Shown here: piece after piece, positions 42,851 to 45,078 of the stretch
Layout of the letters: the number at the start of each line of letters is the position of its first letter
Numbering within the stretch: position 1 is the stretch's first letter
Source of the DNA: Kiloniellaceae bacterium
GTDB lineage: Bacteria; Pseudomonadota; Alphaproteobacteria; Kiloniellales; J153
DNA length: 64,000 bases
Direction of reading: 5' to 3'
Assembly: GCA_021776135.1 (NCBI GenBank)
Contig: JAJFGL010000035.1
Location: 1 to 64,000, forward strand
The notes under the pieces: model-generated
Seen by the model: the letters and a program-made list of their open reading frames with translations, nothing else
Told to the model about the DNA's origin: nothing
The model's database searches: none
Made by a program: the position numbers and the translations under genes

Positions 42851-42926
42851 GACCCCATCGTCTAGAGGCCTAGGACACTGCCCTTTCAAGGCGGCAACAC
42901 GGGTTCGAATCCCGTTGGGGTCACCA
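42851..42926 (+). tRNA. tRNA-Glu (anticodon TTC)
   Basis: A complete 76-nt cloverleaf with encoded CCA. Acceptor stem GACCCCA pairs with TGGGGTC, D-arm GTCTAGAGGCCTAGGAC, anticodon stem CTGCC/GGCGG with loop CTTTCAA (anticodon TTC reads GAA), and T-arm CGGGTTCGAATCCCG. One T-G pair is seen in the anticodon stem. An inverted repeat ATTTTAC-N13-GTAAAAT directly follows (42926-42952). The tRNA marks the left edge of a low-GC segment, as expected for an integration site. Confidence 0.97.
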
Positions 42927-43317
42927 TTTTACTTGAACTTTCACTGTAAAATAGTCCTGTAATATATTGAAATCATAACGATAATTATAATGGCTTGATT
43001 GATACGCGGTCCGCTTGCCCAGAATGTGTGATACATTTTGGGATACAGAGTGCGGTACAATCGGAATATTTGAAGGGTAAGGGTACTGTTTTTCAGTACT
43101 ACCGACAGTTGTTAAAAGCAGTATCTGCACACAGATAGACAGGTGTTAACGAAAATAACAATAGAAACAAAAGGTTATAGGAAAAATTGCCTTGCGAATC
43201 GGGAGTCCGTCCAACTCTTGGCTAATATGGTATTTTTGATTTCCACAGAAAATTATTCACTTTTCGCAACTTGTTTTGTTGCTTCTTAACGCAACATGAG
43301 TAGTCTGGTTGGTATAA
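42927..43317. other. AT-rich non-coding stretch behind tRNA-Glu with an operator-like repeat
   Basis: No convincing gene. It holds a hairpin GTACTG-TTTTT-CAGTAC at 43083-43099, and an inverted repeat GCAAC (43266-43270) / GTTGC (43278-43282) with a further GCAAC at 43291-43295, close before the first gene of the three-gene module. The latter may be its autoregulatory operator. A minus-strand frame at 42921-43130 is not recognisable as a protein family. No integrase gene is seen. Confidence 0.5.
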
Positions 43318-43806
43318 ATGGCAACCATCAATGACCTGGTTACTCAAAGACAGCTTGAAAAATTTCAACCCCTTCTTGATCCAGGCGAGCAGCCTCTGCG
43401 GGCCGTGTATATGGATCCGGTTGCCCACGAATGGTGTTTTTCAAGTGCGCAGCTTGGGAAAGCTACTCCGTGTCCGTTTTCATTTGATCGGACCCATGCG
43501 GTCCTGGACGAGTTCTGCTCTGGCGCGCTTCTTTACGAGGGGGCGCATATTCGGCGTCTCGGACCTAAACGAGAGGGAATATGGGAACTCAAAACTGTTC
43601 CACCAGAACACCATTCTGTTCGGATATTCGGATGGTTCTATCGACCGGGCATACTTATTGTGTGTCTATGCAAATATAAGAACGATGTATCAAAAAGATG
43701 CGCTTCAGAGATTAAATTTGTCATCGATTTTAGAGATGGCCTAGCTCTTAGTGAGCCAAAGTTGGCCAAAGGGAAAGACTATGAATCACTCATGCAAATT
43801 GACTGA
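43318..43806 (+). CDS. HigB/RelE-like putative toxin
   Basis: A 162-residue protein. Residues 75-125 contain GIWELKT followed by SVRIFGWFYRPGILIVCL, a pattern like the core of HigB/Gp49-type RelE-fold toxins, in which a Trp/Glu-rich strand is followed by RxF. Residues 1-70 are an N-terminal extension without a known match. The gene order, putative toxin first and XRE protein second with a 26-bp overlap, is the HigBA order. Its base composition is lower in GC than surrounding core genes. The identification is weak by sequence alone; the context carries most of the weight. Confidence 0.55.
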   Translation: MATINDLVTQRQLEKFQPLLDPGEQPLRAVYMDPVAHEWCFSSAQLGKATPCPFSFDRTHAVLDEFCSGALLYEGAHIRRLGPKREGIWELKTVPPEHHSVRIFGWFYRPGILIVCLCKYKNDVSKRCASEIKFVIDFRDGLALSEPKLAKGKDYESLMQID

Positions 43807-44176
43807 GGAAGAAAAGAAGATCCTCAGAGCTCGGTTCGTCATGCACGTGCATCGCGAGCTTTTAAGCGCATTTTATATACGCGAAGCGGAAGGTATGACA
43901 CGAGCGCAGCTAGCCGAGAATCTCGGCATTGATAAGTCAGTCATAAGTCGCAGGCTGAATGGTACCAGCAATATGACACTCGAGGTTATCTCCGATCTGG
44001 CAAGAGGCATGGGCTTCAGACCTGAAATGCAGCTGTTGCCTTATGAAGAACTTGCAGGTGGAAACTCCGTCGCCGTGCCTACGCGTGAGCAGCTATCTTG
44101 CGCCTCTACCCCGGGTGGAGATTATTCGAGCGACTCAGTCGGCACTGTGAATGCAGGAAATTTGTTATCTCTATGA
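43781..44176 (+). CDS. XRE-family antitoxin-like regulator
   Basis: A 131-residue protein. Residues about 40-85 form a Cro/CI helix-turn-helix (GMTRAQLAENLGIDKSVISRRLNGTSNMTLEVISDLARGMGF), like HigA-type antitoxins that bind their own promoter. An N-terminal helix (LTEEEKKILRARFVMHVHRELL) precedes it and the C-terminal 45 residues are disordered. ATG 43781 is chosen with GGGAAAG upstream. It overlaps the upstream gene by 26 bp and the downstream one by 4 bp (ATGA), so the three genes form one coupled unit. Confidence 0.8.
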   Translation: MNHSCKLTEEEKKILRARFVMHVHRELLSAFYIREAEGMTRAQLAENLGIDKSVISRRLNGTSNMTLEVISDLARGMGFRPEMQLLPYEELAGGNSVAVPTREQLSCASTPGGDYSSDSVGTVNAGNLLSL

Positions 44177-44520
44177 GAAAAATCATTTCGACTGAAGTGG
44201 ACGGCAAGACGCTGGAGCTGTATGGGAGTGATGATGACGATCTCGAGCTTTTCTGTGAGGGAGTTCATGGAATCGCGAGCACGGGAGCATCCGTCAAATT
44301 CAACCTTCATACGGTCCTTCCCTGGGAAAGTGATTCTTCAACTCAGAAAAGACGCGTTGTTGCTCGAATCGTGATACCGGCAGCAGATTTCGTTTCTACT
44401 GCTGAATTACTCCAGCGGTTTGCAGATAAAATTCGTGAACCAGGTGCGGTCGTAAATGGTGATGAAGCTGATGAATCTGATGAGGCTGCAAGTCCTGCAG
44501 ACGAGTCGGACGAGGGGTGA
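44173..44520 (+). CDS. Small acidic protein, DUF3467-like
   Basis: A 115-residue protein of unknown function. A beta-rich middle (VKFNLHTVLPWESDSSTQKRRVVARIVI) is followed by a helix (TAELLQRFADKI), the layout of DUF3467 proteins, whose typical ending is an arginine-rich strand then a helix of the AKxLxxxLxxNI type. The last 20 residues are strongly acidic. It is translationally coupled to the XRE gene. A third gene of this type is unusual for a two-gene toxin-antitoxin operon and may be a chaperone or a further toxin-neutralising part (inference). Confidence 0.55.
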   Translation: MRKIISTEVDGKTLELYGSDDDDLELFCEGVHGIASTGASVKFNLHTVLPWESDSSTQKRRVVARIVIPAADFVSTAELLQRFADKIREPGAVVNGDEADESDEAASPADESDEG

Positions 44521-44739
44521 AATCTAAATTAGATAAATCCCACACCCACGCCGAGACTTTTGTGCTGTCATGATCTGTTTAACGAGCCTGTCAGGGCGTG
44601 GGCAACACTTGGATTGTTCTGCTCTGGCCGGCAAAGGACAGCGCCTGCTGGTTTAGAAATAAGTGCTGTTTCCCTGGCAGCAACCTTTAGAATCATCACT
44701 AGTAGCCATACTGGCGCCAACTCAATCCAAGGAGCCCGT

Positions 44740-45078
44740 GTGACTGACGAGTGCTTGCCGAGCGATGTCTGGGTCATGGCCCATGTCCGGCGCTGTAACG
44801 ACAACGGCATCCCGGCCATGGTCGTGCGCAGGGGAGAGGCCAAGGGCGGCGCCGTTCTGTTAAAAATCAATCTACTGACGGAGGGCTGCCGGATTCTGTC
44901 CCAGGCGCGCGGTCTCGACGGCGATTTGGGCTGGCTGGCGGCCTTCAAGGGCGCCCTGGTGTCCGAAGCCGAAGCCGACGACTACCTCACCCGCGCGGCC
45001 GCGCGCGACCCGGATGTCTGGGTTATAGAGATTGAGGACCGAAGCGGGCATAACCCCTTCGAGGGTAAAGTTTTTTAA
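44740..45078 (+). CDS. DUF1491 family protein
   Basis: A 112-residue protein of the alphaproteobacterial DUF1491 family. Seen motifs are DVWVMAHVRRCNDNGIPAMVVRRGEAKGG, then a run of DPDVWVIEIEDRSGHNPF at the end. The GTG at 44740 is chosen because AAGGAG lies at ideal spacing; the longer frame starts in non-coding DNA. GC returns to the genome norm here, so the right edge of the low-GC insert lies in 44520-44740. It converges with a small gene on the other strand. Confidence 0.88.
   Translation: MTDECLPSDVWVMAHVRRCNDNGIPAMVVRRGEAKGGAVLLKINLLTEGCRILSQARGLDGDLGWLAAFKGALVSEAEADDYLTRAAARDPDVWVIEIEDRSGHNPFEGKVF

Follow-up and report, generated by a model that had tools for sequence, protein, structure and literature searches.

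The 64,000-nucleotide stretch analysed here, taken from contig JAJFGL010000035.1 of a Kiloniellaceae bacterium and called the window below, carries three co-oriented open reading frames (ORFs), ORF1, ORF2 and ORF3, downstream of a tRNA-Glu(TTC) gene. ORF1 encodes a predicted HigB/RelE-fold toxin, ORF2 an XRE helix-turn-helix protein and ORF3 a small accessory protein, P0003, which is acidic at its end (Table 1). ORF1 and ORF2 overlap by 26 bp, and ORF2 and ORF3 are coupled by a 4-bp overlap (ATGA). A preliminary description, made from the sequence alone, had seen a compact operon beside a tRNA gene in DNA of low guanine-plus-cytosine (GC) content, and this was borne out in each part: the region from 42927 to 44739 has 46.4% GC, compared with 61.9% in the whole window, and is the lowest among 622 segments of equal size.

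In three of three congeners (G020, G021 and G022), the tRNA-Glu gene and the DUF1491 gene lie about 50-75 bp apart, versus 1,813 bp here, so ORF1, ORF2 and ORF3 arrived together as an islet. Such an insertion at a tRNA gene, with the site empty in all three congeners, is expected of a tRNA-targeted integrative element. The integrase and the flanking tRNA-end repeat that are also expected of such an element were not found within the scope searched: Pfam, NCBIfam, PHROGs and PADLOC give no integrase match for ORF1, ORF2 or ORF3, in agreement with the earlier remark that no integrase is seen (the remainder of the window lay outside that scan), and the 26-bp tRNA 3' end (3 mismatches allowed) and its 15 bp (2 allowed) do not recur within the window. 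Locus L002, from another family of the same order, is the module's nearest relative; its ORF1 is 55% identical and its module starts 405 bp behind a tRNA-Glu(CTC) gene (L002:2395-2470; also L207), compared with 391 bp here; the DNA between tRNA gene and ORF1 is dissimilar in the two. No tRNA gene lies within the 6.2 kb of L039, the third locus with a P0003-type gene.

Table 1. Positions of the islet, its genes and its borders in the window
Feature	Position	Strand	Basis
tRNA-Glu (TTC), left border of the islet	42851..42926	+	ARAGORN
Low-GC islet absent from congeners, borders approximate	42927..44739	none	GC content and comparison with congeners
Candidate operator: repeated half-sites, direct repeat CTTTTCGCAACTTG / CTTAACGCAACATG, inverted repeat TGTTGC-N8-GCAACA	43260..43298	none	Repeat analysis; partly common to L039
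ORF1, predicted HigB/RelE-fold toxin, 162 amino acids	43318..43806	+	AlphaFold2, Foldseek, VIA
ORF2, XRE helix-turn-helix, predicted antitoxin/repressor with long C-terminal tail, 131 amino acids	43781..44176	+	HTH_3
ORF3 (P0003), accessory third protein in the slot held by DUF6941 in most relatives, 115 amino acids	44173..44520	+	Homologues at this position in L002 and L039
DUF1491 gene, right flank	44740..45078	+	PF07372, E=1.9e-30

The predicted toxin, the XRE protein and the upstream DNA

ORF1 matches no family in Pfam, NCBIfam, PHROGs or PADLOC, its sole line being a Pfam one at E=0.2; a few of its relatives, compared with PADLOC and PHROGs, went unrecognised as well. The Gp49/HigB model PF05973 did not match ORF1 and matched one of 58 relatives, under the cut-off, and an hmmsearch of the PDB with an ORF1 profile returned nothing, the kinship being visible by structure only. 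The AlphaFold2 model of ORF1, built from 58 sequences, reached a predicted local distance difference test score (pLDDT) of 91 and a predicted template modelling score of 0.88. Foldseek ranked toxin-antitoxin chains of Streptococcus pneumoniae first (best E=0.011, none reaching 0.001). VIA-align superposed residues of about 26-146 on the S. pneumoniae entry 6af4 (Z 10.9, 108 residues, 2.8 Å), on 6af3 from an S. pneumoniae toxin-antitoxin module (Z 10.8), and on 7awk and 7nbu (Z 9.7 and 9.2), both of which are HigB1, the toxin of the Mycobacterium tuberculosis TAC system; the matches to HigB toxins extend across 107-108 residues at 2.8 Å. Among the 50 best rows, the remaining ones were mostly RelE, YoeB, ParE and HigB chains with Z under 8. 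We take 6af3 and 6af4 to be S. pneumoniae HigBA.

These comparisons predict a HigB/RelE (BECR) toxin fold for ORF1, and the RelE fold, whose absence from a model had been named in advance as counter-evidence, is present in this one; the HigB-like first gene of the preliminary description thus gains support from predicted structure, though no sequence family matches. Its unusual length is explained by about 25 extra N-terminal residues and a short C-terminal tail on an otherwise ordinary HigB-like core. For HigB1, residues E66, R68, R77 and K95 have been proposed as catalytic (PMC9098466, the accessible part of which also gives 6af3 and 6af4 as S. pneumoniae HigBA). Judged by spacing, E90, K92, R102 and K121 of ORF1 are plausible counterparts. 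All 58 aligned rows share W89, E90, T93, R102 and GWF, which says little, because 57 of the rows were fetched by a search pattern that itself demanded most of these letters.

The assignment of the second gene to XRE proved correct, with HTH_3 matching ORF2 at E=4e-10 in Pfam and a PHROG transcriptional regulator family at E=9.8e-14, while its PADLOC lines (best PDC-M64C, E=1.8e-5) are restricted to the helix-turn-helix.

In the 391-bp intergenic DNA before ORF1, the inverted repeat GCAAC-N7-GTTGC that had been put forward as an operator is present (43266-43282); on its own it is not distinctive, because pairs of 5-bp arms with a spacer of 7 occur three times there (0.5 expected from shuffling). 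The repeat that overlaps it, TGTTGC-N8-GCAACA at 43277-43296, is better supported. The 120 bp before ORF1 contain three GCAAC/GTTGC half-sites, an unusual number (P about 0.0006, mononucleotide shuffling), the copies of the direct repeat in the candidate operator lie 25 bp apart, and the DNA upstream of ORF1 in L039 partly retains the TGTTGC-N8-GCAACA repeat (GTTGACTTTTAACGCAA), the equivalent stretch reading TTGTTTTGTTG..T.TTAACGCAA with the second pair kept in part. L002 retains GTTGC only. Because the equivalent 120 bp lack both half-sites in 76 of the 102 loci described below, the candidate operator would at best be particular to the branch of the window. Promoter- and terminator-like sites show no excess over shuffles.

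Relatives and the occupants of the third position

Relatives of ORF1 were found in 4 of 61 genomes of the order and, with a profile, in 11 of 386 genomes of the class, the window's own genome included in both counts. The motif pattern retrieved 69 stretches from a public genome set, 68 of them under names of Alphaproteobacteria and the other, L068, under 'Proteobacteria' only, and 19 stretches from viral contigs. A single-sequence search with the ORF1 protein gave nothing in genome contigs or viral contigs, and tblastn with ORF1 and with the ORF1 and DUF6941 proteins of L103 gave nothing in an annotated phage collection. We collected 106 loci, 105 of which contain ORF1 (L007, not an ORF1 locus, was excluded); removal of the second copies L008, L009 and L020 (of L001, L005 and L004) left 102 ORF1 loci, and near-identical loci, such as L032/L089, L057/L098, L012/L055 and several Rhizobium strains, were retained in the counts.

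An XRE gene lies behind ORF1 in 94 of these 102 loci. It is followed by DUF6941 in 77, by a P0003-type gene in 3 (L002, L039 and the window locus) and by no recognised third gene in 14; of the rest, 2 have DUF6941 without a scored XRE gene and 6 have neither. With the most upstream start taken, every scored XRE gene overlaps ORF1 (93 of 93; L017 was excluded, its XRE ORF being 498 amino acids long). In 80 of 80 loci, a possible start of the third gene lies between -16 and +26 bp of the XRE stop. The third-gene start was chosen among the first 12 possible ones as that nearest a 4-bp overlap, so the frequency of 4-bp overlaps, 36 of 80, is flattered. This conserved order supports the three-part system that had been proposed, and relatives of ORF3 do co-occur with those of ORF1 and ORF2, namely in L002 and L039, contrary to the second outcome that had been named in advance as counter-evidence. 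The ORF1-XRE pair is a widespread, apparently undescribed family, present on plasmids, in predicted viral contigs and in the window islet.

Judged from gene content, the third slot exchanges its occupant while toxin and XRE protein stay, because 77 loci carry DUF6941, 3 a P0003-type gene and one (L051) a true DUF3467 gene directly behind the XRE gene (PF11950, E=1.7e-9). In L068 an unrelated ORF follows the XRE gene. The 14 loci scored without a third gene include L051, L068, L011, L050 and L071; among the others, L010, L014, L017, L079 and L090 have less than 160 bp of DNA left, and L024 and L043 belong to the same Bradyrhizobium clade as L046 and L064, whose DUF6941 gene lies 1.5-2 kb away on the opposite strand in a curli-like region. 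In a quick maximum-likelihood tree of 79 ORF1 rows (root not inferred; rows from the motif search pre-cut at 90% identity), L051 is nested among DUF6941-bearing rows with support of 97 and 94, and the three P0003-type rows fall on one side of a weakly supported branch (58). The simplest reading would be two separate exchanges of the third gene, whose direction an unrooted tree does not give.

A DUF6941 profile, which was built mostly from triplets and is biased towards them, gave 10 matches in 289 genomes. One (L148) is at a contig edge. The other nine are all preceded by an XRE gene, which in seven cases stands behind an ORF1-type toxin (L140 and L141 coincide with L009 and L016); the remaining two are L149 and L145. 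The operon at L109:1417-2691 (= L149) consists of a ParE-superfamily toxin (PF05016, E=7.5e-7, scored in L109), an XRE gene and DUF6941, and in L145 an unclassified 142-amino-acid ORF (no Pfam match) precedes XRE and DUF6941. The Pfam model of DUF6941, which is independent of the triplets, matched twice in 191 class genomes, in L108 (E=3.3e-20) and in the toxin-XRE operon of L109, and once, under the cut-off, in 334 phylum genomes (L203, with neither an ORF1 nor an XRE relative). A search of plasmids for DUF6941 returned 7 records; of three inspected, those of Rhizobium and Bosea carry the triplet, annotated as hypothetical protein, HTH/XRE regulator and hypothetical protein. On plasmid pBVIE01 of Burkholderia vietnamiensis G4 (L206:2019-3414), the DUF6941 gene lies beside an annotated restriction endonuclease gene and follows, with overlap, two unannotated ORFs, one RelE-like by eye and the other XRE (E=2.7e-4); the stand-alone DUF6941 suggested by the annotation was dropped because of these upstream ORFs. 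DUF6941 is found, then, behind toxin-XRE pairs with other RelE-like toxins too, and these contexts support a real three-part system.

P0003 itself matches nothing better than E=0.1 in the four family databases. Its family is small, with 17 rows, and occurs in 14 of 386 class genomes (own included), and three scans of viral contigs with P0003-like motifs found no relative. The DUF3467-like third gene of the preliminary description was not established for P0003: PF11950 does not match it, and a single one of the 17 members gives E=0.057. Comparing the P0003 family with DUF3467 by hhalign gave P 0.0054 and a probability of 6.7%, the best of 15 pairs among six families, compared with 99-100% in split-family controls and with P 0.12 when only two DUF3467 rows were used. 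A link to DUF3467 is at most hinted at by the profiles, and true DUF3467 fills the same slot in L051 only. DUF6941 has no profile kinship to DUF3467 or to the P0003 family by hhalign, so what the three share is their place behind the XRE gene.

The C-terminal tail of ORF2 has 55 residues, counted from the alignment anchor at the end of the helix-turn-helix. Where a third gene is present (80 loci), the corresponding tails measure 44-91 residues (median 60); they have 29-31 residues in L011, L050 and L071, in which no third gene was found, and 42 in four Bradyrhizobium loci. A tie between tail length and third gene was kept as a lead only, because L068 has a tail of 94 residues and no recognised third gene; the short-tailed Bradyrhizobium loci L046 and L064, with their distant DUF6941, also count against it.

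Several of the relatives lie in phage-like or surface-gene surroundings. The L095 triplet (L095:4131-5477) is located amid phage tail genes, with DUF2460 and a baseplate hub before it and an Rcc01698-like tail protein behind, a placement like that of a phage moron. Terminase or capsid genes share the fetched stretch with the triplet in L103, L105 and L106; in L092 the one protein tried had no family match. Curlin-like/CsgG genes adjoin the toxin-XRE(-DUF6941) genes of Rhizobium, Bradyrhizobium and Bosea (L006, L024, L043, L046 and L064 by eye; L205 by annotation).

Interpretation and competing explanations

We lean, by a modest margin of belief, towards reading the islet as a HigBA-type type II toxin-antitoxin module with a third, translationally coupled protein that acts on the antitoxin. 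ORF1 would be the toxin, probably a ribosome-dependent mRNA interferase, and ORF2 would bind and neutralise it while its helix-turn-helix binds the repeated half-sites upstream of ORF1. ORF3 would most likely act on ORF2, folding or stabilising it via the long C-terminal tail, and we infer that loss or titration of ORF3, for example by a protein of an invading phage, would free the toxin. The third protein is taken as a partner of the XRE tail rather than a direct antitoxin because the family of the third gene varies behind a constant toxin and antitoxin, and the carriage by phages would fit as well. More tentatively, and with some doubt, DUF6941, DUF3467-type and P0003-type proteins might be interchangeable non-SecB partners of XRE antitoxins, each a dedicated minder and sensor, and might define a general class of three-part toxin-antitoxin systems whose sensor is swapped between toxin families, probably for different phage triggers.

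The closest known arrangement is TAC of M. tuberculosis (HigB1-HigA1-SecB(TA)), which has the same order of toxin, XRE antitoxin with a long variable C-terminal extension and third gene, and whose HigB1 is among the nearest solved folds to ORF1. Unlike in TAC, the third gene here is not SecB-like by sequence, the slot being held by P0003, DUF6941 or DUF3467. Among solved structures, the S. pneumoniae module (6af3, 6af4), with Gp49/HigB-like PF05973, provides the best structural match; ORF1 differs in its N-terminal extension of ~25 residues and in having no Gp49 match, and the structure listing of that module mentions no third gene. DUF6941 (PF22091) is the usual third gene of the relatives and DUF3467 (PF11950) that of L051, and by Pfam P0003 belongs to neither. 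According to the accessible parts of the papers cited here and below, TAC antitoxins carry a variable C-terminal extension that is bound by the SecB-like chaperone (PMC5105189, PMC6377645), and in CmdTAC a phage capsid protein draws the chaperone off, whereupon the antitoxin is broken down, releasing the toxin (PMC11618068). Gerdes (2025) names TAC and ptuXYZ as three-gene modules (PMC11980606), Makarova (2009) lists an XRE-protease kind and MNT-HEPN among three-component systems (PMC2701414), and PMC13236601 concerns a different system. Titles and abstract beginnings on tripartite toxin-antitoxin systems mention TAC, HipBST and CmdTAC and no triplet such as this one. DUF6941 is not named in the literature searched (subscription papers and preprints lay outside its scope), and DUF3467 appears in one paper, unrelated by its title and the start of its abstract.

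Several observations weigh against the favoured reading. The equivalent of HigB1 K95, K121 in ORF1, is a lysine in only 11 of 58 relatives, and the catalytic residues map only partly. Eight of the 102 loci lack a recognised XRE gene: L019, L073 and L091 are cut off, and L013 and L025 (both with DUF6941), L029, L061 and L082 have DNA there. L029, L061 and L082, in which neither an XRE nor a third gene was recognised behind ORF1, are possibly decayed copies. No third gene is recognised in the 1.2-1.7 kb at L011, L050 and L071, so the pair does not always require one, and L108, the strongest Pfam match of DUF6941, stands alone. At fifteen P0003-family loci outside triplets, the fetched DNA (mostly ~1.5 kb on each side) contains neither an ORF1 nor an XRE relative; the family is thus not bound to toxin-antitoxin modules. 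The AlphaFold2 model of P0003, from two sequences, shows six strands and then a helix at a pLDDT of 55, too poor to judge chaperone likeness; hhalign put SecB likeness at about 0.1% probability for each of the P0003 family, DUF3467 and DUF6941, and P0003 has no SecB match in Pfam at the sequence level.

ORF3 might instead be a direct or second antitoxin, with ORF2 mainly a transcriptional repressor, as in regulator-antitoxin-toxin operons. A system of this kind in a cryptic prophage is said to divide the labour in another way, and a small protein with an acidic end and ATGA coupling would suit such a role; HipBST is likewise a three-part operon with its own division of labour (PMC10627512, PMC9325769). 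We consider this unlikely, as a direct antitoxin should co-evolve with its toxin, whereas the third gene is swapped for unrelated families and is not recognised in L011, L050 and L071. The same three loci, and the occurrence of P0003-family genes mostly in other contexts, would suit an ordinary two-gene HigBA module in which the third gene is a passenger. That is harder to accept, and we regard it as improbable, given that XRE and DUF6941 follow in the same order in 77 of 102 loci, that the third gene lies close by in all 80 loci scored and that DUF6941 also follows other toxin-XRE pairs. Finally, the curlin-like/CsgG neighbours in Rhizobium, Bradyrhizobium and Bosea, the loss of the basic residue equivalent to K95 in most of the family and the relatives without a recognised XRE gene could indicate a domesticated regulatory module that is a toxin no more, for example for surface genes. 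The presence on plasmids, in predicted viral contigs and in the window islet, and the retention of E90, K92, R102 and K121 in plausible places in ORF1, make domestication more improbable still.

Read as a toxin-antitoxin module with an antitoxin-directed third protein, the islet points to a widespread three-gene family whose toxin is missed by Pfam, NCBIfam, PHROGs and PADLOC, and it gives DUF6941 and DUF3467, families of unknown function, a testable role. If the third proteins are indeed minders of the antitoxin, chaperone-like control of toxins would reach beyond SecB, and the swapping of the third gene would be a natural experiment on the gain of new triggers.

P0003-family genes outside the module

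Five of the 15 P0003-family loci outside triplets adjoin type I secretion genes, encoding an ABC protein with a C39-like domain in L007, L111, L114 and L119 and HlyD in L115; at these loci, the P0003-family proteins may assist secretion as small helpers. A second, distant member of the family is encoded in the same genome as the window (L124, G000:C8:14351-14584), with no toxin or XRE relatives in the DNA fetched around it.

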